34,572 bases of DNA, taken from a virus. Positions within the stretch are counted from its first letter, which is position 1. Every line of letters starts with the position of its first letter. The notes below the pieces were generated by a model. The model was not told where the DNA came from. It did no database searches and worked only from the letters and a program-made list of their open reading frames with translations. The stretch lies in the IMG/VR virus record IMGVR_UViG_3300043446_000409, positions 1-34,572 of that record; one strand, 5' to 3'. Positions 6,251 to 30,759 of this stretch are shown piece after piece. The translations under genes and the position numbers were made by a program.

Positions 6251-7356
6251 TATTCGACTCGTAGGAGAATTGTGTCTTTGTTGATCCGACCTGTCAATTC
6301 AGAAGGTTTAGAATTGATGTCACCCATCACTTTGCGCAGAACGATTTTGCCACCCTCCAGGACTCTCTTCAGGACCTCTGCAGGCTTTCTGAGTGTCTTA
6401 GAGATAGACTCACTGTATTTATAGTTCTCGATTGTAGAACCCTTGACACTCAAACCAGCGCTATCGTTCGCGATATAGACGCCAAGTTTACGGGTTTTGA
6501 CGTTATAAACCCACAACTTCTCGGAACCCATAATCTTCACAGGATTGATCGATGTCAACTTATTGTCGGTATCGTCTTTCTTGTAGTTCAGCTTGGCAAC
6601 CTTCTTTTCGAGAGGAATTGCCTTCTTCTTTCGCGGCTTTCGAGCGGCGTTCTTATTCGCAGCTAGACGTTCAGCATCGCTCATAAACAATGCAAGAATA
6701 TTTGCACCGTGTAGATACTCTTTGTGAGAGCGCGGATTCGCCTCTTTCACATATTCATCAGTCTTGCGATCACCGATCATGATGACCCACTCACGCGCAC
6801 GATTGCGAAAATACTCTGCAATCTTTGTGGCATGCATGGGCTTCACGCCGTTCTCCATCATCCAGGTGTACGGATCAAAGTCTTCTTTTGATGCACGGTG
6901 CCAGAGATCATCAAACTTGCCTTCAAGTTCCATGATGAAATAGTCGACCTTGTTTTGTACGCGCTCTTGAATAGAGATGACATTAGACGGCTCATTAGAG
7001 CCTTTTGCAGGCGATGCAAGTTCGCGCTCGATGACGATCTGATCAAGGCGTCGAATAAATCCATTCACGCTAGTATTGAAAGAGTCGAAAGAGTTGGCAG
7101 GAATCTTTGCGCCACGCGAAAGACACCGCGCAACAAAACCGTCAGTCTGATTCCACATCAGATTCAGAATCTGCGCTGCTTGTTTTTGCTCTTTGGTCAG
7201 TCTTGATCCGAGATAAGATACAAGATATGCTCTTGCATCTTTCTCAGACTTGTTCTCAGCGTACCAACTCAATGCATCAATAAGAGATAACTTGTCGCAA
7301 GTTTTCTCTCTGTCCCAGATAGGTTCTGGAGTGACCCTTGGTGTATACTTAGCCAT
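6250..7356 (-). CDS. conserved phage protein of unknown function (368 aa)
   Basis: A 368-residue soluble protein. Residues 1-220 are mostly helical (DALSWYAENKSEKDARAYLV, FVARCLSRGAKIPANSFDSF); a basic linker at about 238-262 (AARKPRKKKAIPLEKKVAKL) leads to a beta-rich C-terminus with KLWVYNVKTRKLGVYIAND and KGSTIENYK. Such an arrangement suggests a nucleic-acid-binding linker, but no domain is recognised. It has its own promoter (TTGACT, 17 bp, TATAGT at 7364-7392), with the -10 box 7 bases from the ATG, so its transcript would be almost leaderless. Confidence 0.7.
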   Translation of the reverse strand: MAKYTPRVTPEPIWDREKTCDKLSLIDALSWYAENKSEKDARAYLVSYLGSRLTKEQKQAAQILNLMWNQTDGFVARCLSRGAKIPANSFDSFNTSVNGFIRRLDQIVIERELASPAKGSNEPSNVISIQERVQNKVDYFIMELEGKFDDLWHRASKEDFDPYTWMMENGVKPMHATKIAEYFRNRAREWVIMIGDRKTDEYVKEANPRSHKEYLHGANILALFMSDAERLAANKNAARKPRKKKAIPLEKKVAKLNYKKDDTDNKLTSINPVKIMGSEKLWVYNVKTRKLGVYIANDSAGLSVKGSTIENYKYSESISKTLRKPAEVLKRVLEGGKIVLRKVMGDINSKPSELTGRINKDTILLRVE

Positions 7357-7363
7357 GAGGTAT

Positions 7364-7392
7364 ACTATACTCTAAAAAATTGAAAAAGTCAA
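7364..7392 (-). promoter_or_regulatory. sigma70-like promoter before the 368-aa gene
   Basis: Minus-strand TTGACT (7387-7392), 17 bp, TATAGT (7364-7369). Close to the sigma70 consensus and different from the repeated cassette. The predicted start site is next to the ATG at 7356. Confidence 0.7.
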
Positions 7393-7404
7393 ATTAAAAT
7401 TTTA

Positions 7405-7794
7405 TTAGCTAAACTCGCGCGAACTGAACGAATAGCCCTCTGGATCGTCCCAGTCATACTCTGGATTGAACCAGCCTTCCTTGCGCCCTTCATCATTGTG
7501 GACAAGATTCTTGCGACCATTGGGAACATACTCGTTGCTCCAGACATAATCTGGTCTACCAAAAATTTCTACCAACTCAACAAACTCATCGAATGGAACA
7601 GTATCACCATACTCATCACGAATAGTCTTGTCAACAAGATACTCTTTCCACTTCTGCCAAGAAGTCAGACCATCATACTTGTAACCTTGAAATGAGAATG
7701 CCCAGCCATACGACTTCTTGCCTATATGATATTTTTCATCGAATCGGTTGCAGCATTCGCAAACATTCTCAACAACGTAGTAATTAGTGCCCAT
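7405..7794 (-). CDS. conserved phage protein (129 aa)
   Basis: Start set at the ATG at 7794 (MGTNYYVVENVCECCNRFDE), which overlaps the ligase stop as TGATG. The pattern MGTNYY, then CxxC, then HIGKKSYGWAFSF is a recurrent conserved phage protein. Cys12 and Cys14-15 with His23 could bind metal. The C-terminus ends with several acidic and aromatic residues (EYDWDDPEGYSFSS). Function unknown. Confidence 0.7.
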   Translation of the reverse strand: MGTNYYVVENVCECCNRFDEKYHIGKKSYGWAFSFQGYKYDGLTSWQKWKEYLVDKTIRDEYGDTVPFDEFVELVEIFGRPDYVWSNEYVPNGRKNLVHNDEGRKEGWFNPEYDWDDPEGYSFSSREFS

Positions 7795-9137
7795 CACTTA
7801 ATCCTCTTGCTACTATCCGCAGTTGTCTTATCTTCACGAACTTCGAGGAACACAGGCAGGAACAAACTATCCTCACCCTTGTTCTTGCTAGAAATTCGAG
7901 CATTGTACTTCACAGTTACAATCTTACCCTTTACCTTCGTGAAAGTCAACTCCGAGCGCATCTCATCAGTCAGACCAGTGCCAACCGAAACATTCACCTT
8001 GCCATCTGAAGACTGAAGAACCAGCGCACCAAGTTTGCCCTTGTTCTTGCCAGTGCCTTCTTCCCAGCCGACGCAAATCAGATCACACTCAAGTTCGCCC
8101 TTGAACTTGATCTGGTGTTTAGCCCTCTTGTCTTCCCAAATACCATCGCGAGTCTTGAGGATAATACCTTCCTGACCAGCAGCGTGATAAGTCTCGAACA
8201 ACTTTTGGGTCTCTTCTATCGAATTAGCGATAGTGGTGTCAACCACATTAACAAGATGAAGCAAATGATCGCTTAGATTATCAACTGCAACCACAACAGT
8301 TCCGAGACGAGTTTCGTAATCAACATCGCACTTGCCCTGCTGGAAATACTGGAGGGGAATCACATCCCAAATCGTCGCACGAACCTGTTCACGCTCTTCG
8401 TCAGAAATAGTCCCCTTCACAGCCTTGTTCAGAATGCCGTTGCCCGTCTTACGATCCAGTAACCTTTCCACGAGTTTGGCACTGGCTTCCGCCACAACCA
8501 ACTCGCCATCAAACACAACATTTGCCATGCCGATATTTTTGGCCATCTCTAGAAATGCTGCATCAAGAAGATCATTATTGACGGCGACTTCCTTGCCATT
8601 GCGTGAACGATACTCAACGCTCTTAGCATTCGCATCGACAATTGCGGCAAAGCGCATGCCGTCCATCTTTAGCTGGACAAAAGCAGGGAACTGCACCTTG
8701 GCGACCAACTTCTGTTCATAGCCAGAAGCAAGCATACAAGGAAACGTCGGGATCAAGTCCTTCCAAATCTTATTGGCAGTAGACTCTTGAACACCGCAGT
8801 CTAGGTCTTTCTGGATCACAGCCTCAAGAACCTTCGCATCATCAGCAACCAATGACCCTAACAACTTGGCAAGAAATGCAATCGCATCATTACCTGTGGT
8901 CTGGCGACTCGAAAGAACAGTCAGACTGTCAAGAACAGAATCAAGACTATCTGCCTGATTCTTCTTGGCTGGCTTGTACTCTGGAATCTTACGTTGATAG
9001 AACTGCGTATATGGATCAAGTGCGAGAAAGATCACGCGCTTGAGTACATCATTCTTAGCATTCTTCTTTAGGATTGCCTCTTTCTCGAGGCGAGAAGAAG
9101 TCGAACGCAACTCTTCTAAAATAGTATAGACACTCAT
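7794..9137 (-). CDS. ATP-dependent DNA ligase, T4 gp30-like (447 aa)
   Basis: The nucleotidyl-transferase motif I is KMDGMR, with the adenylated lysine at residue 157. Motif III follows as VFDGELVV, motif IV as EGIILK, and motif V as HQIKFKGELECD. The N-terminal helical domain and the C-terminal OB fold (KGKIVTVKYNARISSK) give the usual length for T4-type ligases. It seals nicks during phage replication and recombination. Start chosen as ATG at 9137 (MSVYTILEEL); the frame is open 12 bases further to a TTG that overlaps the HNH stop. The ribosome binding site is weak either way. Confidence 0.93.
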   Translation of the reverse strand: MSVYTILEELRSTSSRLEKEAILKKNAKNDVLKRVIFLALDPYTQFYQRKIPEYKPAKKNQADSLDSVLDSLTVLSSRQTTGNDAIAFLAKLLGSLVADDAKVLEAVIQKDLDCGVQESTANKIWKDLIPTFPCMLASGYEQKLVAKVQFPAFVQLKMDGMRFAAIVDANAKSVEYRSRNGKEVAVNNDLLDAAFLEMAKNIGMANVVFDGELVVAEASAKLVERLLDRKTGNGILNKAVKGTISDEEREQVRATIWDVIPLQYFQQGKCDVDYETRLGTVVVAVDNLSDHLLHLVNVVDTTIANSIEETQKLFETYHAAGQEGIILKTRDGIWEDKRAKHQIKFKGELECDLICVGWEEGTGKNKGKLGALVLQSSDGKVNVSVGTGLTDEMRSELTFTKVKGKIVTVKYNARISSKNKGEDSLFLPVFLEVREDKTTADSSKRIK

Positions 9138-9145
9138 CTTATATT

Positions 9146-9529
9146 TCAATCTTTGCTTTTGGTCCGTATGACCTTATGATAATGTTCAAGATTTTGAGTC
9201 GCAGTAGTCCATTCCAAATTTGAAGGATGATAATTCATTCTATCACCATTTATATGGTTCACCTGCATATTCTTCATCAATTCTTTTTTAACAGAATCTG
9301 GAGTCTTCTTCCAGTCTTTCACGGGAATTCCTGGATATGTTTCTGGTAGCGGATGAAAAGTTTCGCAAACAAGTCTATGTATGGCAACTGTGCGCGCTTT
9401 GCCTTCAATCCAAAGGCTGACTTTAGGATATCTACTTGCTCCACTTGTTCCAGATGTGGACGTTTTTATAACTTTTTGTGTTCGCGAATTGTATATATTT
9501 CCATCATCAAGCATCCAATATGTATGCAA
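9146..9529 (-). CDS. HNH homing endonuclease-like protein (127 aa)
   Basis: The C-terminal HNH fold is clear: VNHINGDRMNYHPSNLEWTT, preceded by IHRLVCETFHPLP at about residues 50-62. It resembles free-standing homing endonucleases of phages. The N-terminus is uncertain. The frame contains no ATG before M6; a TTG at 9529 is one possible start. A separate ATG at 9582 with AAGG upstream opens another frame that encodes MTDISGRTVY, and loss of one GT from GTGT at 9553-9558 would join it to LIHKGKKLHTYW. The gene may therefore be frameshifted. Confidence 0.75.
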   Translation of the reverse strand: MHTYWMLDDGNIYNSRTQKVIKTSTSGTSGASRYPKVSLWIEGKARTVAIHRLVCETFHPLPETYPGIPVKDWKKTPDSVKKELMKNMQVNHINGDRMNYHPSNLEWTTATQNLEHYHKVIRTKSKD

Positions 9530-9620
9530 CTTCTTACCCTTGTGAATGAGGTATACACAGTCCGACCAGAAATGTCTGTCATATCAATTACCTTATAGAA
9601 AACAACTCGCTTCTATAGGT

Positions 9621-9673
9621 ATAATAGCTTTCTGGAAGAAAAAGTAAAGCAGCAAAAACTCTAACAAAATCAA
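9621..9673 (-). promoter_or_regulatory. repeated-cassette promoter E
   Basis: TATTAT (9621-9626), 16 bp, TTTACT (9643-9648), 19 bp, TTGATT (9668-9673). Same spacing as the cassettes near 4400-4970 and 800. It drives the HNH gene, the ligase and 7405-7794, and starts just past the receptor's terminator. Confidence 0.75.
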
Positions 9674-9728: not shown

Positions 9729-11951
9729 TTATAGCTTCGCGTTGAGCGCTATACCAAACATCCTTGGCGTATTGAAGTTTCCATAATACCCAAGTGTCGC
9801 AGCATTAGACGGATCGCGACGATAGACATGCGTTTCATCTAGCAAGTTTCTTGACCATGCTGATACGGTGAACGAATCATTTAGGTTATAAGATAGCTTG
9901 CCGTTTACGATGAACGATGCATCATTTGTCGCATCAAACTGATCAAAGGTCTGAGTTGCGTCCATATGATTTGCATCCAGATGAAGCGTTACCTTATGAA
10001 TCTTATAGTCAGCGCCGACGTTGTAGACATTCTTTGGAGTGAATACAATAAACACTGGCTGAATCTTGTTCGTGAACGGATTCATCGTCTCAGGAACATT
10101 TGTGCTAGTGTAAGTGTATGCAGCAGAAAGAACTAGATTATCGATTGGCGAATATAGCGCTTCAACTTCAACACCCTTGATCTTTGTGACGCCAGGAGCG
10201 TTGATCGTTTCAAGTGTGTTGCGTGTTGACTTCGTGACTGGATCAAACTGAACATTCGAGAAGTCGATCTGACTTCCTGTACGATCCATTGTATAAGCAG
10301 CCATGTTGACGCGCAGATTATCAAACTCAGTCTTCACACCAACTTCGTATGACTTGTTATCTTCTGGATCAAATGCACGATAGGTGATCGATCTTGAAGA
10401 TGCGCCACCAGAACGATATCCAGTTGCATACTTCGCGTAAGTATTCACATTCTGATTTAGCTTATACGAAAGAATGACAAGTGGATTGAAACGGCTTGTC
10501 TTCTGCGCATAGGTAAAGTTTGTTGAAATGTTTGATACCTTTGTTAGAGAGCCAGACTTATCATCCGTAGTGTATCTGCCACCAAGAGTGATTGCTAGCT
10601 TCTCTACTGGAGTATAAACAACCTGACCAAAAGCAGCATATGACTTGCTATCTGCTCTGCTCTGACGATCAAGACTACGATTGCCGATCAACGTATTGGT
10701 TAGATCGTTGATCGTATATGATGAAGTTGTTGCATCCCACTTGTTTGTAGAAGGAGTAGCAGCGTCATCAGCAGCAGTCTCAGTGAAGTAGTATAGACCG
10801 CTCACATAACGTAGGTTGTCAAAAATGTCACCAAGCAACTGAAACTCTTGTGACCACTGAGTCTGGTCAAGTGTTGCGAGTGAGTATCTTGAGAAGACAC
10901 CATTAGGAACTGCAACAGGAACGCGATGCGCGCCACCAGAGTTGTCCCACTGGCTTACATAAACAGAACGCTTCGACGAAATAGAACGAAACTCTTGCTC
11001 ATTGAACTTATATGATACAGAAAGAGTATGACCGTCTGTCTCATCAACGCTGTCCTGCTGAGGAACACCGATATCAGCAACTGTCATTCTGCTCGTGCCA
11101 TTTACAACAACAATAGAAGGCAGTGGCTTGATCTGACCAGTTGCTGTGCCTACTACAAGTCCTGTTGGATTGTAGTTGAGTAGCTGTGAGTAGAATGGCG
11201 TGTTCTTATCGTTGCCATAATCATACGAATATGAAACTGTCAACGAATCAGTTGGCTTATAGTCAGCAGCAAACTTTACACCGTTGCGATCATAGTAGTT
11301 CCAACCACGCTGACCAGCAAGAGGATTCTTTACTACTGCATCTTGATGCTGGTTCACGACATCGATCTTTGTCGAAATGTTTGCAAACTCGCCAAGATTG
11401 ATATGTGCATCAGCAGCGTAATTATTGTAATTGCCATAGCCTGTATTCAGATTGACACCGAATACGCCTGTAGGCTTCTTTGTTACAATGCTTACAGCAC
11501 CACCTTCAGTGTTACGACCAAAGAGTGTGCCCTGCGGTCCCTTTAGAACTTCGATGCGCTCTACATCAAATAGCGCAGCATTGAGTCCGTGCTGGCGACC
11601 AAGATAAACGCCATCAACATAAACGCCGACGCCTTGTTCACGCGCTGGCTGGTTTGCATCAAGTGGTACGATACCACGAATGCCGATAGTAAGTGCTGAT
11701 TGACGCGCTTCGAATGTAGCGACTGTTAGACCAGGAATTGATCCATCATTTAGATCTAGCAAACTCTTTACTTGGCGGTCAGAAAGACCCTTTGAATCGA
11801 GAACAGAGATTGCGATTGGAGTTTCTTGTAGATTCGTTTCTCTCTTAGTAGCTGTAACTACAATTTCTTCTAATACAGGTGTTAGTGGTTCAGCAGAATA
11901 AGCTGAAAGTGAAATGAGTGATACAGCCAGTGCGGCTAGAAATTTAGTCAT
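9729..11951 (-). CDS. TonB-dependent outer-membrane receptor (740 aa)
   Basis: An N-terminal signal peptide (residues 1-20, ending SAYSA) is followed by a TonB box, EEIVVTATKR (28-37), a plug domain including DVERIEVLKGPQGTLFGRN and GGAVSIVTKKP (about 128-158), and a long beta-barrel region ending GNFNTPRMFGIALNAKL. The length is normal for the family, and no frameshift is visible. TonB-dependent receptors import siderophores, vitamin B12 or sugars across the outer membrane using host TonB. The substrate is not readable. It is a full-length host-type gene with no endonuclease or transposase beside it, in a unit with its own upstream region and terminators on both sides. The TGAGG/CCTCA hairpin at the start covers the ribosome binding site. 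Confidence 0.92.
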   Translation of the reverse strand: MTKFLAALAVSLISLSAYSAEPLTPVLEEIVVTATKRETNLQETPIAISVLDSKGLSDRQVKSLLDLNDGSIPGLTVATFEARQSALTIGIRGIVPLDANQPAREQGVGVYVDGVYLGRQHGLNAALFDVERIEVLKGPQGTLFGRNTEGGAVSIVTKKPTGVFGVNLNTGYGNYNNYAADAHINLGEFANISTKIDVVNQHQDAVVKNPLAGQRGWNYYDRNGVKFAADYKPTDSLTVSYSYDYGNDKNTPFYSQLLNYNPTGLVVGTATGQIKPLPSIVVVNGTSRMTVADIGVPQQDSVDETDGHTLSVSYKFNEQEFRSISSKRSVYVSQWDNSGGAHRVPVAVPNGVFSRYSLATLDQTQWSQEFQLLGDIFDNLRYVSGLYYFTETAADDAATPSTNKWDATTSSYTINDLTNTLIGNRSLDRQSRADSKSYAAFGQVVYTPVEKLAITLGGRYTTDDKSGSLTKVSNISTNFTYAQKTSRFNPLVILSYKLNQNVNTYAKYATGYRSGGASSRSITYRAFDPEDNKSYEVGVKTEFDNLRVNMAAYTMDRTGSQIDFSNVQFDPVTKSTRNTLETINAPGVTKIKGVEVEALYSPIDNLVLSAAYTYTSTNVPETMNPFTNKIQPVFIVFTPKNVYNVGADYKIHKVTLHLDANHMDATQTFDQFDATNDASFIVNGKLSYNLNDSFTVSAWSRNLLDETHVYRRDPSNAATLGYYGNFNTPRMFGIALNAKL

Positions 11952-14304: not shown

Positions 14305-16029
14305 TTAGTCGAAAAAGAATAGTTGAAACAGTCTAGAATTTTGAATGTTCGTGCCGAAGTATTCATTCGCAGCATGAATGCTCTTAGCATCAAACAGAAC
14401 TAGTCTATTGAACACGTTGCCAGCTGTGTCAACCAGTTCAAACTTAGACTTGTCATAATAGCCACCATCAAACGCTTTTTCTGCGCCCTCGTGCGACTCG
14501 TGCCGCGCTCTAGTTGCTTTATGTGCAAACAGAGATGTGCCGCTTTGATACGGTGCATCAGGCGTCAGATATATCATGCCAGCCCATGACTGACTATCCC
14601 AATGATAGACTAGCGCATCTTCAGGTGTGCAGTATTGAAACTTACCGTTCATGCCGTGTTCGTCCCACACTGTAATTTTTCTGCCAAGAATCTCTTCAAA
14701 TTTCTGGCGCAGTTGTGGTGTTCTGAAATTCCCGACTGACCTCATGCCCTTATAGTACCTGAGATCTTCGACATATTCTTGTGCGAGAGCATAGTCTCTA
14801 ATAAGATATGGATTCTCATAGAAGTCATCGACTATGATAAGTCTTGGATTAGACTTCTTGTTCATTGCGAAAATCTTGCCTATGCCCAGTGTTCTTTCGG
14901 ATGCAAACTGGTGCAATGATTTCACATAATTGCCGCCATCATGATACATGTTCGGGTTGATCAGAAAGTGATATTCTGGAAACGGAACTGTTCTTTCTGA
15001 CTGCATCATTTTAGCAGTGCATTCAAACATATCGGTATAGTTTATCAATTCGCAATAGACTTCAGCAAGATAGATCAGATGATCATTTCTGCGTGGTGCG
15101 AATTCTTCAGCCTTCTTATAGAAATCGATTGCTTTGTAATGCTCGTTCATAAACCTATAAGCATTACCAATAGCACACATTGCGTAATAAGCCATCTCAT
15201 CGACATGATCTGCTTTGCCAGTCACACTGTAGTTGTGAGTGTGATTTACAATTTCAGTAAAGTAGAAAATGCAGCGACGCGCATACTCTTTCTGGTGTAC
15301 GTCTTGAAGAGGAAAGAAATTGCCGCGATAGCAATCTTCATAGCTTTTGCCGATGTACCAGAAATGGTACAGGTCTTTGAGCATTGAGTTTTCGCGGATC
15401 AGTTTTTCTTCTAGCTTCAGCGCATCAGTGACATACTTCGTAGGGACTGAATAGCTTTCACCAAAAGATGTGCCACCGATCATGCGAAACTTTTTAGATA
15501 GATTGACTCGCTGAAAATTCTCGCCAATATTATTCGTTCGCAGAAAGATCGTCTCATGCGCTGGATCATGATTGAACTGCCAGTCTAGCTTAGCATTCCA
15601 TATCCATGCACGAAAGTAAATGACGCCAGGAACAACAGAAGGCACATGAAAACTTTGAATTGACTTATTATCAAATGCTGACCAATCAAAGTCTTCATCG
15701 ACTTCTAATACTTCATCACAATCCATTTTGATGATCCAGTCACAGCCATGATCCGTAGCTTGGCATTTCTGTAACAGATGATCACGATTCCATCCAAAGT
15801 TGACCCAGCCTTCTTCTACGTTATAAACAAAGCCAGGGATCTGTGTGCGCTCTTGCCACTCTTTGACAATCTCTGGAGTGCCGTCAGTTGAACCATTGTC
15901 TTGAAGAATCCAATAATCAATATACGGAGCAACAGAATCTAGCATCTTGCCAATATTTGCTGCCTCGTTCTTGAACATAGAGATCATGACGAACTTAGGC
16001 TTTTTATATCTTTGTAGAAGTTGTTTCAT
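14305..16029 (-). CDS. GT2 glycosyltransferase-TPR-2OG oxygenase-like fusion (574 aa)
   Basis: Residues 1-220 form a GT-A glycosyltransferase: ISMFKNEAANIGKMLDSVAP, the DNGSTDGTPEIVKEW block and DCDEVLEV, the metal and sugar-nucleotide site. Residues of about 265-365 read as TPR-like helices (AIDFYKKAEEFAPRRNDHLI). The C-terminal 180 residues (from about 395) contain VDDFYENPYLIRDYA, HWDSQSWAGMIYLT (HxD), a late SIHAANEYFG histidine and SRLFQLFFF, the order of a DUF6445-type Fe(II)/2OG oxygenase. One chain could thus add a sugar and oxidise a peptide or sugar. Role in virion or envelope modification is inferred. Confidence 0.82.
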   Translation of the reverse strand: MKQLLQRYKKPKFVMISMFKNEAANIGKMLDSVAPYIDYWILQDNGSTDGTPEIVKEWQERTQIPGFVYNVEEGWVNFGWNRDHLLQKCQATDHGCDWIIKMDCDEVLEVDEDFDWSAFDNKSIQSFHVPSVVPGVIYFRAWIWNAKLDWQFNHDPAHETIFLRTNNIGENFQRVNLSKKFRMIGGTSFGESYSVPTKYVTDALKLEEKLIRENSMLKDLYHFWYIGKSYEDCYRGNFFPLQDVHQKEYARRCIFYFTEIVNHTHNYSVTGKADHVDEMAYYAMCAIGNAYRFMNEHYKAIDFYKKAEEFAPRRNDHLIYLAEVYCELINYTDMFECTAKMMQSERTVPFPEYHFLINPNMYHDGGNYVKSLHQFASERTLGIGKIFAMNKKSNPRLIIVDDFYENPYLIRDYALAQEYVEDLRYYKGMRSVGNFRTPQLRQKFEEILGRKITVWDEHGMNGKFQYCTPEDALVYHWDSQSWAGMIYLTPDAPYQSGTSLFAHKATRARHESHEGAEKAFDGGYYDKSKFELVDTAGNVFNRLVLFDAKSIHAANEYFGTNIQNSRLFQLFFFD

Positions 16030-16030
16030 A

Positions 16031-17272
16031 TTAGATCATCAGTGAATGTGGACGACGCGCATTTGATTTCACAGCTACAAGCCATGCGTCAGTGATAGCA
16101 ATATTGTTTTCCCACCAGAAAGTATCTAGCTTGAACTCTTGGAACTTGATGTCTTTATTTCGAATAAAGTCAGCCATATTCTTGCGAGTGTAGTACCAGA
16201 AGCTGTTTTCATTCCAGAAACTGACATGCGTAGGATCTTGCCATGCACCACGACCATCAGTGCTAGGGACTTGAATGAACGCCCAGCCACCGTCAACTAG
16301 AACACGATGAATCTCGCTCATGATCTTTTGCTTGTCGTGAAGATGTTCGATGATATGAGATGCCCAGATTACACCGACAGAGTTATCTGGCAGTGGAATG
16401 CCATCGTTTAGATCCCACTTCATATTACCATCTTCCATATCGATGTTTATGTTGCATCCCGCTTTAGGATTGATGCCACCACCAAGTTCAACGATATGAA
16501 GATTATTATCTCTAGCATCTTTACAGGCTAGATCCCATGCATACTTGCGAAACAGTTCTACTGTCTTAGTCTGAATCGCAGCATTTCTTTCTAGCCAAGT
16601 ATTATCACCAGTGACTCTATAGATGTAAAGCACCTTAGGAATATGATGCATCTTTGTGTGATGCAAGTATGTGCGAATCATCAACTCATGATCATCACAG
16701 ATATCTAACTCTGGATTATGACCACCGATCTCATTATACACATCACTGCGCCATGCACGAACATGATCTGGTGCATACCAAATGAAACTCATGCTTCTGC
16801 TGCTAGGCTCAAAGCAATTGTGAGCAAGCAAGTTTTTGTCTTGCCAGTTGTAGCGATAGCTTGTCCAACCGTAAATCGGATTATAAGGAAGTGGTTCTTC
16901 CTTCATGTGATAGATTGCATCATCACTGAATACAAAGCCGATGTTTGAATCTGACTCAAATGCTTTTTGAAGTTCTTCAAGGCAATCTGGTGTTAGGATA
17001 TCATCGTGATCGACTTCAACAAGAACATCGCCAGAACCGCACTTGAACGCTCTGTTCTTGTTGTAGCCAACGCATTTGTTGTTACTATTATCAACAATCA
17101 ATCGAACTCGCTCGTCTGCACGAATCGAGTTCGGAACATCAACTGCTGTTGCACCACCATTCAAATAGATGATCCATTCCCAATCAGAATGAGTCTGTTT
17201 GACTAGACTATCATATAGATCAGTCAACCACGCATTTTTTAGATGCGTGGGAGTAATAATGCTAAATTTCAT
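16031..17272 (-). CDS. GT2 glycosyltransferase-methyltransferase fusion (413 aa)
   Basis: Residues 1-235 form a GT-A glycosyltransferase: FSIITPTHLKNAWLTDLYDS, then VEVDHDD (the DxD motif) and CDDHELMIRTYLHH. Residues 260-400 form a class I SAM methyltransferase: HIVELGGGINP (motif I), ASHIIEHLHD, and an IHRVLVDGGWAFIQVPSTDG block typical of LPS-type methyltransferases. This pair of activities is found in surface polysaccharide synthesis, so a glycan cap or LPS change is plausible. It sits 2 bases from the 574-residue glycosyltransferase gene, so the two are probably co-translated. Confidence 0.85.
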   Translation of the reverse strand: MKFSIITPTHLKNAWLTDLYDSLVKQTHSDWEWIIYLNGGATAVDVPNSIRADERVRLIVDNSNNKCVGYNKNRAFKCGSGDVLVEVDHDDILTPDCLEELQKAFESDSNIGFVFSDDAIYHMKEEPLPYNPIYGWTSYRYNWQDKNLLAHNCFEPSSRSMSFIWYAPDHVRAWRSDVYNEIGGHNPELDICDDHELMIRTYLHHTKMHHIPKVLYIYRVTGDNTWLERNAAIQTKTVELFRKYAWDLACKDARDNNLHIVELGGGINPKAGCNINIDMEDGNMKWDLNDGIPLPDNSVGVIWASHIIEHLHDKQKIMSEIHRVLVDGGWAFIQVPSTDGRGAWQDPTHVSFWNENSFWYYTRKNMADFIRNKDIKFQEFKLDTFWWENNIAITDAWLVAVKSNARRPHSLMI

Positions 17273-23255: not shown

Positions 23256-25286
23256 CTATTTAGAAGTTGCTCTAAACACTCCGTCAAAATTCACAGGCGG
23301 TTTGCCCTCCATTCTCTCTAGCATCATGTCGTAGTATTTAGTCATTTCGCCATTCCACGAAGCCTGAAGTCCTGGCACCAACTTCTTTGCCATTGCCCAG
23401 TTTCCTGCTCTATATTGAGTTATGAAGTTCTTATGGACAAACTCAGCATTCTCATTCGTGCGTGGAACTATCGTATAGATCTGGACAGGCTCAGTTTTAC
23501 CCTTTACAGCTAGTAAATCAAGTTCCAGAACTGAATATTCGTCTTTGACGTACTCAGCAGTCTTTGGTCCAATGACAATCTTTACGCCGTATGGTTTTGA
23601 TTGTCCTTCGAGACGACTTGCCAGATTGACGCCATCACCCAGACAGGTATAATCAAAGCGTTGACTGCTACCCATGTTACCAACAACAACGGTGTCAGTA
23701 TTAATACCGAGACCCATACCAAATGCTGGCACGCCTTCTTTAGCAATTTCTTCATTGAATTTCTCCAAATCCTTGAGCATAGCCAATCCAGTAGCAACAG
23801 CATTCTTAGCATGTTGTGCATCGTCAAGCGGTGCATTCCAGAAAGCCATCTGCGCATCACCAATATACTTATCTAGTGTTCCTTGATTCTCGATGATTCG
23901 TGCAGTCATCGCCGTCATATAGCGGTTCATGATCTGAGTTAGACCCTGGACGTTCTTGCCATAGTGTTCAGAGATCGTAGTAAATCCACGAACGTCTGTG
24001 AACATGATCGATAGTTCACGAGATTCACCGCCGAGTTTGAGCAGTTCTGGATTCTTCTGTAGCTTCTCGACCATTGCTGGCGATAGGTAAGTGCCGAATT
24101 GCTTCTTGATCTGTTGCTTCTGTAAGAACTCAGAAACAAACTTGACGCCATAAGCATGAAGCGCTACTAGAACTATACCGCCAACAAACAATGTGATATC
24201 AACAAGGTATAGCTTGTCAGCATAGAGATACTTGCTGGCAAATACGCTGCCAATTCCTAGCATAAGCGTTGAAGCAAGACCAACATAAGTCCATCTTGTC
24301 AGGAATAGCAATAGAAGCCCTGCAACTGCCAGCGCAATGATCTCTGCACCATCTGACCACCATGGGCGCTGGATGTTGACTTGATTTGCCATTGTGCCGA
24401 TGACAGCAGCTTGAAGGTCTTGTGGCCAAACAGCACCCTTAGCAGTAGCAACTGGATTGCCAATACCTGCTGCTGATACGCCGACGATGACTACAGCACC
24501 GCCGAAGTCTTTAGGAAGATCAGCCGCAGAAACTGATTTGCTTGTCTGCGACCAGTCAATCCAGACGCGACCTAAACTATCAGTTGGAATAGGACCAAAC
24601 TGCGGAATGCGCATCTTCTCGACGCCAGACTCGTTCAGCTTGATTTGAAAGTTTGGATCACCAGCCATGACTCTGAGTGTTTCTAGGCTCAGATTAGGAA
24701 ACAGTTTGCCATCAACAGAAGCAACTAGCGGCACTCTGCGATTCACACCATCAATTTCAGGCAGTGTATTTGTAGTGCCAACACCAGCAGCTGCATTCTC
24801 TAGGGCAGGAATATTCGCAATCATTGCTGGATAGACTAGAATAGTTTCTTCAAACTCAGAGCCAATGATAGCAGCGCCAGGATTCTTCGGCTCATTCTTT
24901 TTTACATTTGACGGCATATTAGGAAGAATGACAGGTGCCTTGCTCATTACATCAGCAAGCGCTTTGTCACCACCCATGCGATCAACTTCAGGCATCAGAA
25001 CATTGAATACAACTAGACCAGCATTGTGATTATAGAGATCAGCAATCAACTGTGCATAGACATCGCGCTTGAACGGAAACTGCCCGTACTTGTCAATCGT
25101 AGCTTCGTCGATGTTGACTGTGTAGATATTATTTTCAGTCGGTGCTTTTGACGTAATCAGTGTGTCAAAGTATCGGAGTCTGACTGACTCAACGAATGAC
25201 GGATCTGAAACTCGCAACGCAACAACAAGCGCAAGAGTGATCAGCGCAGTCCAAGGACTCAATAGAATTTTACTAAACTTTTTCAT
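23256..25286 (-). CDS. CHASE2-domain class III adenylate cyclase (676 aa)
   Basis: An N-terminal anchor (10-25), a periplasmic CHASE2 sensor domain (about 35-300; VRLRYFDTLITSKAP and a PTDSLGRVWIDW segment), three membrane helices (about 313-380), and a C-terminal class III cyclase domain. In the latter, FTDVRGFT gives Asp431, LDKYIGDA gives Lys473 and Asp477, and YTCLGDGVNLASRLEG gives Asp551, Asn554 and Arg558. The Lys/Asp pair is that of adenylate rather than guanylate cyclases, and all catalytic residues are present, so it should make cAMP. This is a bacterial-type receptor cyclase in a phage. Its ATG overlaps the phosphoesterase end by 14 bases; the holin candidate follows. Confidence 0.93.
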   Translation of the reverse strand: MKKFSKILLSPWTALITLALVVALRVSDPSFVESVRLRYFDTLITSKAPTENNIYTVNIDEATIDKYGQFPFKRDVYAQLIADLYNHNAGLVVFNVLMPEVDRMGGDKALADVMSKAPVILPNMPSNVKKNEPKNPGAAIIGSEFEETILVYPAMIANIPALENAAAGVGTTNTLPEIDGVNRRVPLVASVDGKLFPNLSLETLRVMAGDPNFQIKLNESGVEKMRIPQFGPIPTDSLGRVWIDWSQTSKSVSAADLPKDFGGAVVIVGVSAAGIGNPVATAKGAVWPQDLQAAVIGTMANQVNIQRPWWSDGAEIIALAVAGLLLLFLTRWTYVGLASTLMLGIGSVFASKYLYADKLYLVDITLFVGGIVLVALHAYGVKFVSEFLQKQQIKKQFGTYLSPAMVEKLQKNPELLKLGGESRELSIMFTDVRGFTTISEHYGKNVQGLTQIMNRYMTAMTARIIENQGTLDKYIGDAQMAFWNAPLDDAQHAKNAVATGLAMLKDLEKFNEEIAKEGVPAFGMGLGINTDTVVVGNMGSSQRFDYTCLGDGVNLASRLEGQSKPYGVKIVIGPKTAEYVKDEYSVLELDLLAVKGKTEPVQIYTIVPRTNENAEFVHKNFITQYRAGNWAMAKKLVPGLQASWNGEMTKYYDMMLERMEGKPPVNFDGVFRATSK

Positions 25287-26031
25287 TGTGCACCGATATA
25301 ATTTCCCATGTCCCGTCTAAATGTTCTACAAGAGCAGTACAACTCTCGCACCAATCGCCGTCGTTCATATAAACCACATCTTGATAATGAACTATCTCAG
25401 CATGATGAATATGACCACATATAACGCCATCATAGCCTTTTCGTTTACAGTAATTTGCCATCTCTAAAGAAAACTTACTGATAAAACTTGTAGCCGCCTT
25501 TGCTCGTTTCTTCAAGTATTTCGCAAGACTCCATGGTCTCATTCTAAGCATTCTTCTAGAAAAATTCACCAGTCTATTGATGTAGATTAGAGAATCGTAT
25601 GCAATGTCTCCAACATGCATCAACATTCTACCAGCTTTGGTTCTCATGAGATTGTCGAACATATCTCCGTGAGTGACCAAATACTTTTTACCGTCTATCC
25701 CGTAATATGTATATCTGTTTTCGACAGCAACCTTACCTATCTGAACATTTGGGAAAGTTCTAAAGAACTCATCGTGGTTGCCTGTAATATACACAACATT
25801 AGACTTCTCAGATATCTTGAGTAGCTTTCTGATTATTTTGTTGTGCTTCTTTGGCCAGTACCACTTCTTAGACAATCTCCAGCCGTCAATAATATCACCC
25901 ACTAGAAACAGATTTTCAGTGTTCAAATCTTCTAGAAAATCAAGAAGTGCATCTGAGTTGCAATGCTTTGAACCCAGATGCAGATCAGAGATGAAAACAG
26001 ACTTGTATCTAACCCCAGTATTTCTTTTCAT
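25273..26031 (-). CDS. calcineurin-like phosphoesterase, LpxH-related (252 aa)
   Basis: All metallophosphoesterase motifs are present: SDLHLG (15-20), GDIIDGW (45-51), GNHDE (84-88), THGD (120-123) and GHIHHAE (206-212). The closest known style is the UDP-2,3-diacylglucosamine diphosphatase (LpxH) family, including the C-terminal DGDWCESCTALVEH block found in proteobacterial homologues. A substrate in lipid A or another nucleotide-diphospho-sugar is likely; CpdA-type cAMP phosphodiesterases share this fold, so cAMP hydrolysis is a less likely alternative. It overlaps the GT2 gene by 23 bases and the cyclase by 14, indicating coupled translation. Confidence 0.85.
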   Translation of the reverse strand: MKRNTGVRYKSVFISDLHLGSKHCNSDALLDFLEDLNTENLFLVGDIIDGWRLSKKWYWPKKHNKIIRKLLKISEKSNVVYITGNHDEFFRTFPNVQIGKVAVENRYTYYGIDGKKYLVTHGDMFDNLMRTKAGRMLMHVGDIAYDSLIYINRLVNFSRRMLRMRPWSLAKYLKKRAKAATSFISKFSLEMANYCKRKGYDGVICGHIHHAEIVHYQDVVYMNDGDWCESCTALVEHLDGTWEIISVHNEKV

Positions 26032-26719
26032 CTATATTTTCCCAGTGCTTCTGATTATTTCTATTGAAGAAGTTTTGAATTAGATACCAACACATACCGA
26101 AGTAGCCCATCTTTTTGAATCTTCTGCTGTCTTGACCGAAGTAATGATTCGCGATTCTGAACTTCTTCGGCGAGTATTGCTTAGATAGAAAGAAGTCTTC
26201 GCTGGTTGCATACTTCTCAGGAAAGCCTTTCAGTTCTCTGAACCTATCAGTTCTGGTCAGCATATATGCGCCGATAGCAAACGGCATCCAATACTTTAGA
26301 ATGTTGTTTACTATATTGAATAGACTGAATGCAATCTGCGCTTTTATGTTACCGTCATAGCACCTGACATTTAGACCGATCAGATCAAGATTCTGATTCT
26401 CCATCATAGTCATAGTGTCTTTTATGACTGTGTTGGAGAAGAATCTTACATCAGAATCAATGAAGAGAATATATGGTGTCTCAACTAATCTTGCGCCATT
26501 GTTTTTAGCAACTGACACTGGACCACCTTGAATGACAGTGACGTTTAGATTGCCTTTATTCTCAGCGATTCTTTCACGAGTTTTATCAGTTGATGCGTCG
26601 GCAATATAGATTTTTACACCATCTATATCTTTTTGTTCTTTGAGAGCGTTTAATAGATTATGAATATAGTTTTCTTCGTTCTTACAAGGAACAACTATAG
26701 TCAGTTTATTGTTCAGCAT
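26009..26719 (-). CDS. GT2 family glycosyltransferase (236 aa)
   Basis: LTIVVPCKNEENYIHNLLNA at the start, then YIADASTDKT, then a clear DSDVRFFSN metal/sugar site (residues about 90-100), then GAYMLTRTDRFRELKGFPEK and the SEDFFLSKQY acceptor motif. It is a GT-A fold family 2 glycosyltransferase. Start taken as ATG at 26719; GTG is just before it. It overlaps both the small lipoprotein and the phosphoesterase gene, so it belongs to the envelope-modifying block. Target unknown; LPS or a glycoprotein is likely. Confidence 0.85.
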   Translation of the reverse strand: MLNNKLTIVVPCKNEENYIHNLLNALKEQKDIDGVKIYIADASTDKTRERIAENKGNLNVTVIQGGPVSVAKNNGARLVETPYILFIDSDVRFFSNTVIKDTMTMMENQNLDLIGLNVRCYDGNIKAQIAFSLFNIVNNILKYWMPFAIGAYMLTRTDRFRELKGFPEKYATSEDFFLSKQYSPKKFRIANHYFGQDSRRFKKMGYFGMCWYLIQNFFNRNNQKHWENIDEKKYWG

Positions 26720-26855
26720 CACGAAAACCTCTCACTGTGCCGCCCATGTCACCAGCGTCTAACTTTCTGCAATTATGGCTCTGATCTTTCTTGCATACTG
26801 GCAATGTAGCACAACCACTCAGTATCAACAGCAGTAATAGCAATATGTATTTCAT
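26706..26855 (-). CDS. small lipoprotein (49 aa)
   Basis: A 49-residue protein starting MKYILLLLLLILSGCATLPV. A lipobox LSGC at 12-15 makes Cys15 the lipidation site. The mature protein has two further cysteines (C21, C29) and a Gly-rich tail. The ATG overlaps the FecR gene's stop as TGATG, and the 3' end overlaps the GT2 start by 14 bases. Short lipoproteins of this kind usually attach to the outer membrane. The function is unknown, but it lies inside the curli/cyclase block. Confidence 0.6.
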   Translation of the reverse strand: MKYILLLLLLILSGCATLPVCKKDQSHNCRKLDAGDMGGTVRGFRDAEQ

Positions 26856-27949
26856 CAGTCACTCTGTTTGATATTAATTTTGGTAGCACCAGCTGGGTCG
26901 TTAATCTCAATTAGATACGATTTACCATTACTATCTATGTATAACGTCTTTCCTTCAGACTTCTGGAACCTGACATCAACAACGGTATTCAGAGTTCGAA
27001 CCAGACGTAGCTGGTCGCCAGAAAGAATTGTTGTTATCTGTGTTGTGGAATCCAAGCCAAAAGATGTGCCGCAGACCTTTGTTTCTTCGCGTGTTTGACA
27101 TATATTACCATTTCCAAAAGTATCACTCAGATAGTCCTCACCGAGAAAATTAGCATCAACTGCATTAATATCTAAATCAGAATTAGCAAGTTTATCTTCT
27201 TTCAGGTCATCTTTAGCCAAGAAGTCTACATTTAATTCCGACAGATCAAGTATGTTTCTTTTCGAAGCCTCGACATCCTCAGTGGTTTTTACTTCCTCTG
27301 GTGGGGATACTATAAGCATATTATCAATCTGGTCCAATGTCAAGTTTAATATGACTGGTTTGGTTGGTCTCGAATCATAAGTTGAAACAATAGTTGCCTG
27401 AAATGCTCTGGTCAGAATCACCATTCCAGCAGCATTCGAAACTGTTATCTCACCAACGCTACCATCTGACTCTGGTAACAATACGATAAGACTCTTCCCG
27501 AAATCGTCAACAGTTGTAGCAAAGTCAGTACCTCTGACAGCAATGGTTGCCGTTGGAGTCTGTAAATTGATATTCGCTTTGTTGATTTTTCCTGTTTGTC
27601 CAGTGGCAAAACGAACTGTTCCCGACGCAAATTTTAGCGCCATTTTAGAAGTAGCAGGACTTCCACTATAGACAAAATCGTCAATGACTAATTTTGAATG
27701 CTCAGTGATTTTGACATTCGAATCATCAACAAATTTAATCTCAAGGCGACCGTTACCAGTCTGGACATTATCCATTTGCTCAATCGGGAGAGCGAGTTTG
27801 CCGTCGAGTTTACCATTCTTACGAACAACCTCGCTACTCCCTTTGAGTTCAGATATTTGCCCTATACTAGCATGGACCACCTGCATTACACTGATTGACA
27901 GTAATAGTGTTGCTATTACCAGTGTGCGTGATATTAACCGCGTCAACAT
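26855..27949 (-). CDS. FecR-domain secreted protein (364 aa)
   Basis: A signal peptide (1-27, ending QVVHA) is followed by a FecR domain, with QMDNVQTGNGRLEIKFVDDS (about 58-77), KFASGTVRFATG and TPTATIAVRGTDFATTVDDF (about 131-150). The rest is beta-rich, with a CQTREETKVCG segment (two cysteines) near residue 290. FecR-domain proteins often sit next to CHASE2 cyclases in bacteria. It could be the outer partner of the cyclase or bind curlin. The ATG at 27949 lies inside the curlin gene (83-base overlap), but only this start yields a proper signal peptide. Confidence 0.82.
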   Translation of the reverse strand: MLTRLISRTLVIATLLLSISVMQVVHASIGQISELKGSSEVVRKNGKLDGKLALPIEQMDNVQTGNGRLEIKFVDDSNVKITEHSKLVIDDFVYSGSPATSKMALKFASGTVRFATGQTGKINKANINLQTPTATIAVRGTDFATTVDDFGKSLIVLLPESDGSVGEITVSNAAGMVILTRAFQATIVSTYDSRPTKPVILNLTLDQIDNMLIVSPPEEVKTTEDVEASKRNILDLSELNVDFLAKDDLKEDKLANSDLDINAVDANFLGEDYLSDTFGNGNICQTREETKVCGTSFGLDSTTQITTILSGDQLRLVRTLNTVVDVRFQKSEGKTLYIDSNGKSYLIEINDPAGATKINIKQSD

Positions 27950-28565
27950 TTAATGTACTCTTCTGGTTAATTGTCAATGTATTGCTGCTGCCAGTAACAG
28001 TTACGTCAGCAGTTTTACCTGCATGTCCCTGTTGTGTCATAGTCATTGTATTACTGTCACCAGAGATGGCTACTGTGTTTACAACATCGTCTGCGTTGAT
28101 ATTCGATGTGTAAGTGTTAGTATCACCAGTGATGGTAATGTTTTGTGTTGCACCAGTAGCAGATGACGTAGTACCCTGATTGAAGTTCAGAGTATTGGAA
28201 TCACCAGTTACTGCTACAGTTTTACTAGAACCAGAAACAGAACCACTGTCACCCATATCATAATTCACTGTATTCCCATCACCAGTCAGTGTTAGGTCTT
28301 CAGTTACATTATCAGCTTGCTCAATTTTACCAGTGATGTTATTGTTATTGCCATTTTGGTCAATGTCAACATTCATAGAACTTCCCTGAATAGAAACTCT
28401 AGCTTGTTCTGAACCGATGCGGTTATTTTGACCCTTTTGACGAATATCAATAGTGCTGTTTCCCCCAACTTGATCAATGTAGATCGAGTTTGTAGTTGCC
28501 TGTCCATACGCTAACGAAGATGCCATCAGAGACATAACAAATAATGCCTTGATTGCATTTTTCAT
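27867..28565 (-). CDS. curlin-repeat amyloid-like protein (232 aa)
   Basis: A signal peptide (1-21, ending LAYGQA) precedes about eight imperfect repeats of roughly 22-28 residues. Each has the strand-turn-strand pattern T-V-x-G-D-S-N-T-x-T-x-x-Q, e.g. VAVTGDSNTLNFNQ, VAISGDSNTMTMTQ and VTVTGSSNTLTINQ; the first unit, SIYIDQVGGNSTIDIRQKGQ, matches CsgA-type repeats best. The C-terminus adds NQCNAGGPC with two cysteines. This is a CsgA/CsgB-like subunit that should form a secreted beta-helix or amyloid. Gene order and ATGA overlap with csgG support co-expression with the exporter. Confidence 0.82.
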   Translation of the reverse strand: MKNAIKALFVMSLMASSLAYGQATTNSIYIDQVGGNSTIDIRQKGQNNRIGSEQARVSIQGSSMNVDIDQNGNNNNITGKIEQADNVTEDLTLTGDGNTVNYDMGDSGSVSGSSKTVAVTGDSNTLNFNQGTTSSATGATQNITITGDTNTYTSNINADDVVNTVAISGDSNTMTMTQQGHAGKTADVTVTGSSNTLTINQKSTLNVDAVNITHTGNSNTITVNQCNAGGPC

Positions 28566-29350
28566 TTACTTTGCTCCTGTGTCTTCCAGAACCCTTTCTG
28601 AGTTCCTTGATTTATAAGTTCGACGACTGCTGCTTCGATTGCGGTTTTAACTGCCACTGTATTGGCTTCGTTCTCCGTCATTCCCGACTCAGCTTCGACT
28701 AACTTCGTACCCACATCAACAAAACGAAACAGTGTCAAATCTCTAGAAACAGATAAAATTGTTTTAGAAATTTGCACATTTAACAAAATTTCGCCTGTGT
28801 TTGTAGACACCGCTCTGAGTGCAACAACTACCTGATCTTTACGATATTGAGTTGTTCCACCAATGCCCAAGTATCTAGCACCTGCGCCACCAGTCATTAT
28901 GTTTGTATCATAGCCGATAATACCACCTTGCAACATAATGCCTGCAAATAACATAGGTTCGAGTTTGTTCGCATCTTTACCCAAATATTCTTCGCGCGTC
29001 TGACGTACAATTTGACGTTCTTTAGCCAAATCATCAATACGATTTCTCTCGACTACTTTAAACCACGTTCCACCTCCAGCATTTTTTAATGCATCAATAA
29101 GAAGTGCAGTTCCACCTTGCGTAACTGCACTTGATAAACTTGCCGTTCCACCAACATCTTTTCTCTGACCAGTCAGATCAGGGAAATCATAAACAGCTAT
29201 CACAGCCTGACGTTCAGGTGGTGGTAACTTCTTTAGTGTTGTCAATTCTGACGTATTCACTCTGGGTGTATCTTTCATCTGCAGAACACCACCACCAGTG
29301 CTCATACATCCTGATAACAGCAAGCAGATTAGTACGAATACCGCTCTCAT
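28562..29350 (-). CDS. csgG: CsgG, curli secretion pore lipoprotein (262 aa)
   Basis: Lipobox LLLSGC (12-17) ends a short signal peptide. The mature protein follows E. coli CsgG closely: VYDFPDLTGQRKD, then TALLIDALKNAGGGTWFKVVERNR, then GGIIGYDTNIMTGGAGARYLGIG, then LRAVSTNTGEILLNVQISKTILS and RFVDVGTKLVEAESG, in the same order. CsgG assembles a nonameric channel in the outer membrane that exports curlin. Both trans-membrane hairpins are conserved. The eyelet loop differs: the Tyr51 and Phe56 positions of E. coli are not aromatic here. It follows csgF directly and precedes the curlin gene. Confidence 0.95.
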   Translation of the reverse strand: MRAVFVLICLLLSGCMSTGGGVLQMKDTPRVNTSELTTLKKLPPPERQAVIAVYDFPDLTGQRKDVGGTASLSSAVTQGGTALLIDALKNAGGGTWFKVVERNRIDDLAKERQIVRQTREEYLGKDANKLEPMLFAGIMLQGGIIGYDTNIMTGGAGARYLGIGGTTQYRKDQVVVALRAVSTNTGEILLNVQISKTILSVSRDLTLFRFVDVGTKLVEAESGMTENEANTVAVKTAIEAAVVELINQGTQKGFWKTQEQSK

Positions 29351-29791
29351 TTAGAACTTGAACCCGCTTAATGGGATAATAATCTCTGTCGTGTTACCAG
29401 CATCATCAGTGATCGTCAGCTTTATTTCTGTATCAGTTTTGTCATACTTAATTGTGTTTCCATCTAGCGCAAATGTGCCAGAAGATGCGCCTTGTGCGCC
29501 GAATAGGTTGTTTGTCAACTGTTGCGCCAGCTGAGAATAGATTCTTGACTGTAGATTATTCATGAATCTGTTTAGAATACTGTTCTTTTCTTCCAACGCA
29601 GCTGCCTTCAACTCAGCTTCTAGCTTGTCATTGATTGCTTTTCTGCGCGTGAATTCTTGGTTCTCAATCGTCAACCATTGAGCGCCTGCGTTCACTCCAC
29701 TGAACGATGGATTCTTAAACTGATGTGTGAGTTCTGTTGCTTGTGCGCTACTTACTAGGAGCAGCAGCAGGAGGTGCTTCTTTCTTAACAT
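29351..29791 (-). CDS. csgF: CsgF, curli assembly factor (146 aa)
   Basis: Start at 29791 (MLRKKHLLLLLLVSSAQATE), giving a signal peptide cut near AQA-TE; an upstream TTG at 29836 would lie in the previous gene. The mature N-terminus ELTHQFKNPSFSGVNAGAQW matches the pore-binding segment of E. coli CsgF (F-x-NPxFGG). The C-terminal beta region (GNTIKYDKTDTEIKLTITDD) fits. CsgF closes the CsgG pore and anchors the first curlin subunit. Followed directly by csgG. No csgE or csgB was found in this window. Confidence 0.9.
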   Translation of the reverse strand: MLRKKHLLLLLLVSSAQATELTHQFKNPSFSGVNAGAQWLTIENQEFTRRKAINDKLEAELKAAALEEKNSILNRFMNNLQSRIYSQLAQQLTNNLFGAQGASSGTFALDGNTIKYDKTDTEIKLTITDDAGNTTEIIIPLSGFKF

Positions 29792-29832: not shown

Positions 29833-30126
29833 TCAAGGGTTAGAATTTTTGCTATTTCCAATTTTATTTTGCATTCCATTTTGTTTATGATCCTCATGCA
29901 ACTGCAGAACCACACTCACTTTTTGTTGTAAACGAATCATGTCGTTATCAAGCATGCGAATGCGATCGATTAATGCAACCAAGATAACATTAGTTTCACC
30001 AATCAGTGGCATTAGTTTAGTTGTTACAAACTTGTAGATAAAGTAAACAAAGTAGCCCATACCGACTGACGATACAATCGGAAAACCATATTGTTTTACC
30101 AACTCAGTTATATGATGCGGGTCCAT
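29833..30126 (-). CDS. small membrane protein, paralogue of 30459-30746 (97 aa)
   Basis: One N-terminal membrane segment (YGFPIVSSVGMGYFVYFIY, about 13-31) followed by a helical region with LIDRIRMLDNDMIRLQQKVS. The same plan and the FPI..FVYF motif occur in the 30459-30746 gene, so they look like duplicates. Start ATG at 30126 overlaps the previous stop. Function unknown; its position directly upstream of csgF ties it to that operon. Confidence 0.65.
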   Translation of the reverse strand: MDPHHITELVKQYGFPIVSSVGMGYFVYFIYKFVTTKLMPLIGETNVILVALIDRIRMLDNDMIRLQQKVSVVLQLHEDHKQNGMQNKIGNSKNSNP

Positions 30127-30329: not shown

Positions 30330-30478
30330 TATAGCACCAACGCAAGTTTAGATAATCTGTCAGCTATGTCACGAAGATCGATAACTAATTTACCGCCATC
30401 ATAACCCATTTGTTCTAGCTGTCTAGCAATATCATGCAGTTCTATAATAAGATCTTGTTCAGTCTTTTCTTGCATCAT
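30329..30478 (-). CDS. hypothetical protein (49 aa)
   Basis: Start placed at the ATG at 30478 (MMQEKTEQDLIIELHDIARQ); the frame is open upstream to 30535. It overlaps the preceding gene by 20 bases. A short helical protein with HDIARQLEQMGYDGGKLVID. No family recognised; the start is uncertain. Confidence 0.5.
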   Translation of the reverse strand: MMQEKTEQDLIIELHDIARQLEQMGYDGGKLVIDLRDIADRLSKLALVL

Positions 30479-30746
30479 TTTTACCATCCGCTCTTGCAAT
30501 ACGATCCAAGTCAGGTCTAAGACCCAACGCCGCACTTACAACTGAGTCTACGCGAATGATATCATGGTTCATTGTTTTCACACGATTATCCAAACCCTGG
30601 ATAATGATCTGCATTCCCTTGATGGCTTTAACAACCGATTCAAGGATATAGTTAATTACGAAGTAAACGAACACACCAGCCACCATTGCGGCAGCAATCG
30701 GAAACCCGACTTCGGCTATGATTTTAAAGATCGTTCCAGTATCCAT
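30459..30746 (-). CDS. small membrane protein, paralogue of 29833-30126 (95 aa)
   Basis: A membrane segment (VGFPIAAAMVAGVFVYFVIN, 13-32) then a helical tail (IIIQGLDNRVKTMNHDIIRV), with the same order as the 29833-30126 protein. No ribosome binding site is seen; TATAAATA stands 5 bases before the ATG. This gene starts the run that continues into csgF. Function unknown. Confidence 0.65.
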   Translation of the reverse strand: MDTGTIFKIIAEVGFPIAAAMVAGVFVYFVINYILESVVKAIKGMQIIIQGLDNRVKTMNHDIIRVDSVVSAALGLRPDLDRIARADGKNDARKD

Positions 30747-30751
30747 CTAGC

Positions 30752-30759
30752 TATTTATA
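30752..30759 (-). promoter_or_regulatory. T4-type late promoter box (TATAAATA)
   Basis: An exact TATAAATA on the minus strand, overlapping the stop of the oxygenase gene. It is the T4 late consensus and, if used, would transcribe the small membrane genes, csgF, csgG, curlin and the lysis block late in infection. A single copy cannot prove a class. Confidence 0.4.

Follow-up and report, generated by a model that had tools for sequence, protein, structure and literature searches.

The stretch of DNA analysed here, which we call the window, is IMG/VR record IMGVR_UViG_3300043446_000409, a linear virus fragment complete at 34,572 nt (34.6 kb), with a GC content of 43% and most of its main genes on the minus strand. 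Three of these genes, which abut or overlap, encode homologues of the curli proteins CsgF, CsgG and curlin. As the original prediction had proposed, the genes for CsgF, a full-length CsgG lipoprotein and a secreted curlin-repeat protein are adjacent, and all three are intact and lie where they had been placed, on the minus strand. The same prediction described a setting of tail and lysis genes. A tail collagen protein is indeed present, but a lysis cassette was not found beside the trio, the sole lysis-like match near it being a weak Rz-like one about 5 kb away. The operon exceeds the trio and runs from about 30759 to 23256 on the minus strand (Table 1), in the conserved order TM1-TM2-csgF-csgG-curlin-fecR-(curlin2)-CHASE2/adenylate cyclase.

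Table 1. Positions of the curli operon features and of other genes in the window
Feature	Position	Strand	Remarks
T4-type late promoter motif TATAAATA	30752..30759	-	Starts 13 nt upstream of the TM1 ATG
TM1, first gene of the operon	30459..30746	-	95-aa single-TM protein; phrog_18771
TM2, paralogue of TM1	29833..30126	-	97 aa, single TM; phrog_18771
CsgF homologue	29351..29791	-	Pfam CsgF E 1.7e-24; signal peptide; mature N-terminus TELTHQFKNPSFSG
CsgG outer-membrane pore lipoprotein	28562..29350	-	262 aa; Pfam CsgG E 3.2e-52; lipobox LLLSGC
Secreted curlin-repeat protein	27867..28565	-	232 aa; signal peptide; Pfam Curlin_rpt E 5.6e-7
Periplasmic FecR-domain protein	26855..27949	-	Signal peptide; without the cytoplasmic anti-sigma part
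Predicted lipoprotein, no family	26706..26855	-	49 aa
GT2 glycosyltransferase	26009..26722	-	Part of an insertion unique to the window phage at that site
LpxH-like calcineurin phosphoesterase	25273..26031	-	Same insertion as GT2; UDP-2,3-diacylglucosamine diphosphatase E 1.2e-10, below cut-off
CHASE2 sensor and class III adenylate/guanylate cyclase	23256..25286	-	Catalytic motifs judged intact on visual inspection
Two large proteins, GT2+TPR+DUF6445 and GT2+methyltransferase	14305-17272	-	Possible glycan modification cluster
TonB-dependent receptor (plug and barrel)	9729..11951	-	740 aa, full-length; apart from the csg operon
S-adenosylmethionine lyase-like protein	5702-6250	-	PF23780 E 4e-12; possible anti-restriction gene

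In solved CsgG-CsgF structures, the FxNPxFxG N-terminus of CsgF is the part that enters the pore. The window CsgF matches Pfam CsgF over its whole length and its FxNPxFxG N-terminus aligns to CsgF in 6L7A. Note that the csgF ORF extends to 29836 from an upstream TTG, the coordinates in Table 1 being counted from the ATG. CsgG is an end-to-end match to the solved E. coli protein (PDB profile E 2e-71) with the lipobox Cys conserved, and the constriction residues Y51, N55 and F56 of E. coli CsgG are V, S and L in the window protein. CsgE (PF10627) was not found in the window, in 12 related viral records or in 2 bacterial genomes, while the E. coli control was positive. Since CsgE is missing and the constriction residues differ, gating of the pore may differ from that in E. 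coli; a pore without CsgE may have no gate, or may work in another way than the E. coli one. It has been reported that CsgE is missing from alphaproteobacterial and phage loci; it is the gate of gammaproteobacterial systems and does not define the alphaproteobacterial ones (PMC9599517).

The curlin-repeat protein fell below the cut-off of NCBIfam CsgA (E 2.6e-5). Its AF2 model is all beta, with 17 short strands at medium confidence (mean pLDDT 75.6). Comparison of the model with the PDB by Foldseek returned weak matches only (best E 0.06), VIA-align gave generic beta-solenoid-type folds (SufB/SufD, pectinases; Z 12-18) with CsgA not listed, and a profile search of the PDB found weak curlin matches only (8c50, E 0.045; 8enq, E 0.18). 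Where measurable, dN/dS of the trio against the viral locus L002 was about 0.06-0.11, pointing to purifying selection. By sequence, the window encodes a full curli export set of the type VIII secretion system (T8SS) together with its amyloid-type subunit: a CsgG pore, a CsgF with the pore-inserting N-terminus and an exported curlin-repeat protein.

The gene content of the window is T4-like (primase, ThyX, RNR, thioredoxin, RuvC-like resolvase, DNA ligase, the tail collagen protein and six tRNAs), and its primase is about 40% identical to the nearest matches, from S-CAM1 and Melnitz. The nearest relative of the window is a 74.9-kb contig, G001, with which it has in common ThyX, primase, RNR and the csg module, and which encodes a T4-type (gp43-type) DNA polymerase and UvsX. 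Judged by T4-type replication genes, with polymerase and UvsX seen in this relative, and by the late promoter motif, the window is a fragment of a T4-like phage, of the Kyanoviridae or near them.

Curli modules in phages are not new. The original prediction took this one for a new kind of accessory system; it is not, because curli (T8SS) genes have been published in pelagimyophages (Zaragoza-Solas 2020, PMC7029224), in phage Melnitz (Buchholz 2022, PMC9004378) and, with CsgA/B, FecR and adenylate cyclase, in pelagipodo- and pelagimyophages (Wittmers 2022, PMC9599517). Moreover, CsgF, CsgG and curlin are annotated in the existing GenBank records of HTVC008M and Melnitz. The present analysis adds details, namely a predicted late promoter, the pair of small membrane genes and a sister operon that is rare in bacteria.

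The trio recurs in related contigs. An initial scan found 17 viral loci. A profile scan then found at least 583 stretches that encode it, and with the 80 of these that we retained the two scans cover about 94 distinct contigs; the module is very common in viral contigs. Curlin directly follows csgG in 79 of the 80 profile-scan loci, the remaining contig ending there, and fecR and the cyclase follow in every one of these loci where the contig is long enough. In many viral loci fecR and the cyclase are separated by a second curlin gene, but in none of the window's clade. TM1/TM2 lead the operon in most viral loci; the pair is placed after the cyclase in L017 and downstream on the opposite strand in L042, L044, L045 and L049-L051. 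For every module gene dN/dS was mostly 0.02-0.3, and low in most pairs. These genomic data indicate that the phage curli operon is a real and widespread phage system. In two of the loci, a 418-aa protein whose start resembles tryptophan halogenase lies just before csgF (L049, 2499-3755; L050, 7180-8436).

According to Wittmers et al., csgF is invariably preceded by one 'histidine kinase' or, in some cases, by two (PMC9599517). In the window the genes before csgF encode single-TM proteins without a kinase domain; the published proteins are known to us by description only. A Pfam search as permissive as E 10 detected no kinase domain in TM1 or TM2. Neither Pfam nor PHROG gave them a functional match, or one to a holin family (best YvrJ, E 0.13), and searches of the PDB returned coiled-coil noise only. 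In most phage loci, those of HTVC008M and Melnitz included, the genes before csgF are TM1/TM2, so that models of the phage curli system should probably show the TM pair where they now have the 'histidine kinase'. Among 50,697 phage records, TM1 was found only in HTVC008M and Melnitz-type phages, plus one marginal match (E 0.4). The records with TM1 are the set with CsgG, barring a 1.5-kb Salmonella record (OR851715.1, phage S.Kent 1-2-1, 1499 bp), which we rejected as a CsgG phage as its CsgG-like sequence is probably host DNA.

The T4 late promoter is TATAAATA, with the form NATAAATA in cyanophage S-PM2 (PMC2984593). A single TATAAATA upstream of TM1 could be chance, with 1.2 occurrences expected per window. 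However, the exact motif lies within 50 nt before TM1 in 35 of 68 distinct upstream regions, which, since these loci are related, are not independent events, and in which the distance and context of the motif vary. In 300 dinucleotide shuffles of the same regions the count averaged 0.96 and never exceeded 4, and among control ORF starts it was 20/636. Before the internal genes the motif is rare: TM2 0/69, CsgG 0/78, FecR 1/68 and cyclase 2/58. Even a relaxed motif is missing in 18 of the 68 TM1 loci. Since the motif is enriched before TM1 and rare before the internal genes, the operon is probably transcribed late in infection, starting at TM1. We found no mention of a late promoter for the phage curli operon in Buchholz 2022 (PMC9004378) or Wittmers 2022 (PMC9599517); such a promoter lets the timing be tested in the cultured phages HTVC008M and Melnitz. 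Note that in the window and many other loci the motif often starts as little as 12-15 nt ahead of the TM1 ATG, so that the late mRNA would have almost no leader.

In its predicted structure the FecR-domain protein is similar to the signalling domains of PupR and FecR type; a fecI-like gene did not turn up among the neighbours scanned. We also considered its C-terminus, a G-x-I-x-I-x-Q-like final strand, as a curlin mimic, and discarded the idea since profile comparison gave nothing.

The TonB-dependent receptor belongs to a phage family on which our literature search found no paper. A search of the viral contigs with the single sequence gave no matches, and one with a two-sequence alignment gave 19 viral loci (L185-L203), including contigs of 159, 267 and 333 kb with a T4-type gp23 capsid gene. 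Two receptor contigs share the window's gene order around the receptor. In L049 the receptor comes directly after the csg module; in L188, L189 and L203 its neighbours are the GT2 and LpxH-like genes known from the insertion in the window operon (25273-26722), and in G001 an LpxH-like gene (L021:17908-18651) occupies the window's receptor position. The phage receptor could be a decoy or a replacement receptor.

The original prediction also held that curli export genes belong to bacteria. This does not hold for the present type of operon, which is found commonly in phages but only very rarely in the bacteria that were searched. When about 85,000 species genomes were scanned and the best 80 loci taken, the result was csgF-csgG-curlin-fecR-CHASE2 cyclase without TM1/TM2 in three loci (L105, L106, L107), from two Caulobacteraceae MAGs and Hyphomonas TMED17, with ordinary bacterial neighbours in L105 and L107. 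Of 398 Caulobacterales genomes, one had a full-length match to the window FecR, and this genome was also the only one with such a match among 385 Alphaproteobacteria. In the CsgG tree the three Caulobacterales-type sequences nest in the window's viral clade (support 100/99), the other bacterial CsgGs forming a separate clade, and constraining the viral CsgGs together fits worse (AU p 0.035, a modest value with thin sampling). The nesting, the AU test and the rarity in bacteria speak for a phage-to-bacterium transfer rather than for many independent captures, with the same reservation about p-value and sampling. Nine further loci of the bacterial scan have TM1/TM2 (L108-L113, L126, L131, L183); these look like contigs of curli phages that apparently ended up in MAGs of Bacteroidota, Rhodobacteraceae and Synechococcus, and phage genes binned in this way may be mistaken for host traits.

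Our analysis establishes, at the level of sequence, the parts of the operon, their order, export signals, conservation and purifying selection. For this phage type VIII (curli) operon the best model, in our judgement a reasonably probable one, is late amyloid secretion coupled to cAMP signalling. In this model, CsgG and CsgF would form an outer-membrane channel late in infection, through which curlin would be secreted and then polymerise at the surface of the cell as it dies. FecR would act as a periplasmic adaptor, relaying an outer-membrane or periplasmic signal (secretion state, curlin) to CHASE2 and so setting cAMP, and the place of TM1/TM2 would be the inner membrane, where they would gate the system or couple it. 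There is a precedent in S. meliloti, where CHASE2 cyclases respond via the outer-membrane protein NsrA (PMC13001267). The model is supported by the homologies of CsgG, CsgF and curlin, the constant gene order, the low dN/dS, the motif before TM1, the FecR model and the TM pair, which is retained also in loci where it has changed side or strand. Against it stand the missing CsgE, the different constriction residues, the medium confidence and weak structural matches of the curlin model, the TM1 loci that lack the motif, and the observation of Buchholz et al. that Melnitz-infected cells did not clump (PMC9004378). The likeliest payoff would be an altered cell surface around lysis, leading to exclusion of rival or sibling virions or to aggregation. 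The roles in adhesion, aggregation or superinfection put forward in the original prediction are conjectural. Phage-made amyloid on infected cells could alter aggregation, superinfection and gene exchange in aquatic bacteria.

Of the other explanations, the one that fares best, if still an unlikely one, is a CsgG(-CsgF) pore that serves as a lysis-timing device, as proposed for Melnitz (PMC9004378), with holin-like TM1/TM2 depolarising or permeabilising the envelope and curlin secondary. The late promoter motif fits this explanation, and so do TM1/TM2, which are small, paired and single-TM and travel with the module. However, TM1/TM2 gave no match to a holin family in Pfam or PHROG, curlin, with its signal peptide and repeats, is as constant in the module as the pore, and FecR and the cyclase are left unexplained. 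Moreover, csgA/B were reported missing from Melnitz (PMC9004378), and the lysis hypothesis leaned partly on this absence, yet the Melnitz record MZ577097 annotates two curlin-repeat genes (6842-7561 and 8620-9636).

It has also been suggested that the pore takes up iron or cofactors while infection proceeds (PMC9599517, PMC7029224); FecR would then be a regulator of the iron type and the TonB-dependent receptor the partner of the pore. The FecR domain in the operon and the receptor on the same contig, adjoining the module in L049, speak for it. Nevertheless, we consider it improbable: it does not explain the exported curlin and CsgF, FecR lacks the anti-sigma part and a fecI-like partner among the scanned neighbours, and the receptor is present in only 3 of 24 curli contigs searched. 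Still less credible is a decaying or passenger module without function in the window phage, as the inserted GT2 and LpxH-like accessory genes might hint, because all ORFs are intact, dN/dS is well below 1 in many pairs and gene order is kept over deep divergence. Assembly of a bacterial curli operon onto phage sequence, by chimera or contamination, can practically be dismissed even with such operons occurring on Caulobacterales chromosomes, since the window is syntenic with independent relatives from other samples that have the same adjoining T4-like replication genes (ThyX, primase and RNR in the independent 75-kb G001), the module is present in the cultured HTVC008M and Melnitz and in the viral contigs counted above, and the bacterial operons were found to lack two features of the phage ones, TM1/TM2 and the late promoter.

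Returning to late, cAMP-coupled curli secretion, a wider scenario can be put forward only tentatively, and we hold it to be rather doubtful as a whole: the operon would have evolved in phages and been passed back to a few Caulobacterales, and would serve late remodelling of the outer membrane by a TM1/TM2-led curli system wired through FecR and CHASE2 to cAMP, together with TonB-dependent receptors and lipid-A-type enzymes (LpxH, GT2). If so, some bacterial curli loci would be of viral descent.

Compared with the known systems, the window shares with the E. coli curli system (csgBAC-csgDEFG) the CsgG and CsgF homologues and the curlin repeats; it differs in that CsgE was not found, CsgC and CsgD were not seen and the constriction residues are other ones, and it adds FecR, the cyclase and the TM pair. 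With the T8SS module that Wittmers et al. described in HTVC023P-type podophages and pelagimyophages it has in common the order csgF-csgG-curlin-fecR-cyclase, one or more small genes just before csgF and the lack of CsgE, CsgC and CsgD; the window differs from it by single-TM proteins in place of histidine kinases before csgF, the missing second curlin, the inserted GT2 and LpxH-like genes and the GC of 43%. Melnitz and HTVC008M are, as the window appears to be, Kyanoviridae T4-like phages with TM1, TM2, csgF, csgG, curlin, fecR and cyclase, but their CsgG is only 45-48% identical to that of the window and a further curlin-like gene lies between their fecR and cyclase genes. The Caulobacterales operons are chromosomal and extremely rare, and TM1/TM2 were not found within their 8-kb flanks. 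They nevertheless have the identical genes in the identical order, with CsgGs 60-67% identical to that of the window and thus closer to it than the CsgG of HTVC008M, and they correct the statement that bacterial curli operons exclude FecR and cyclase.
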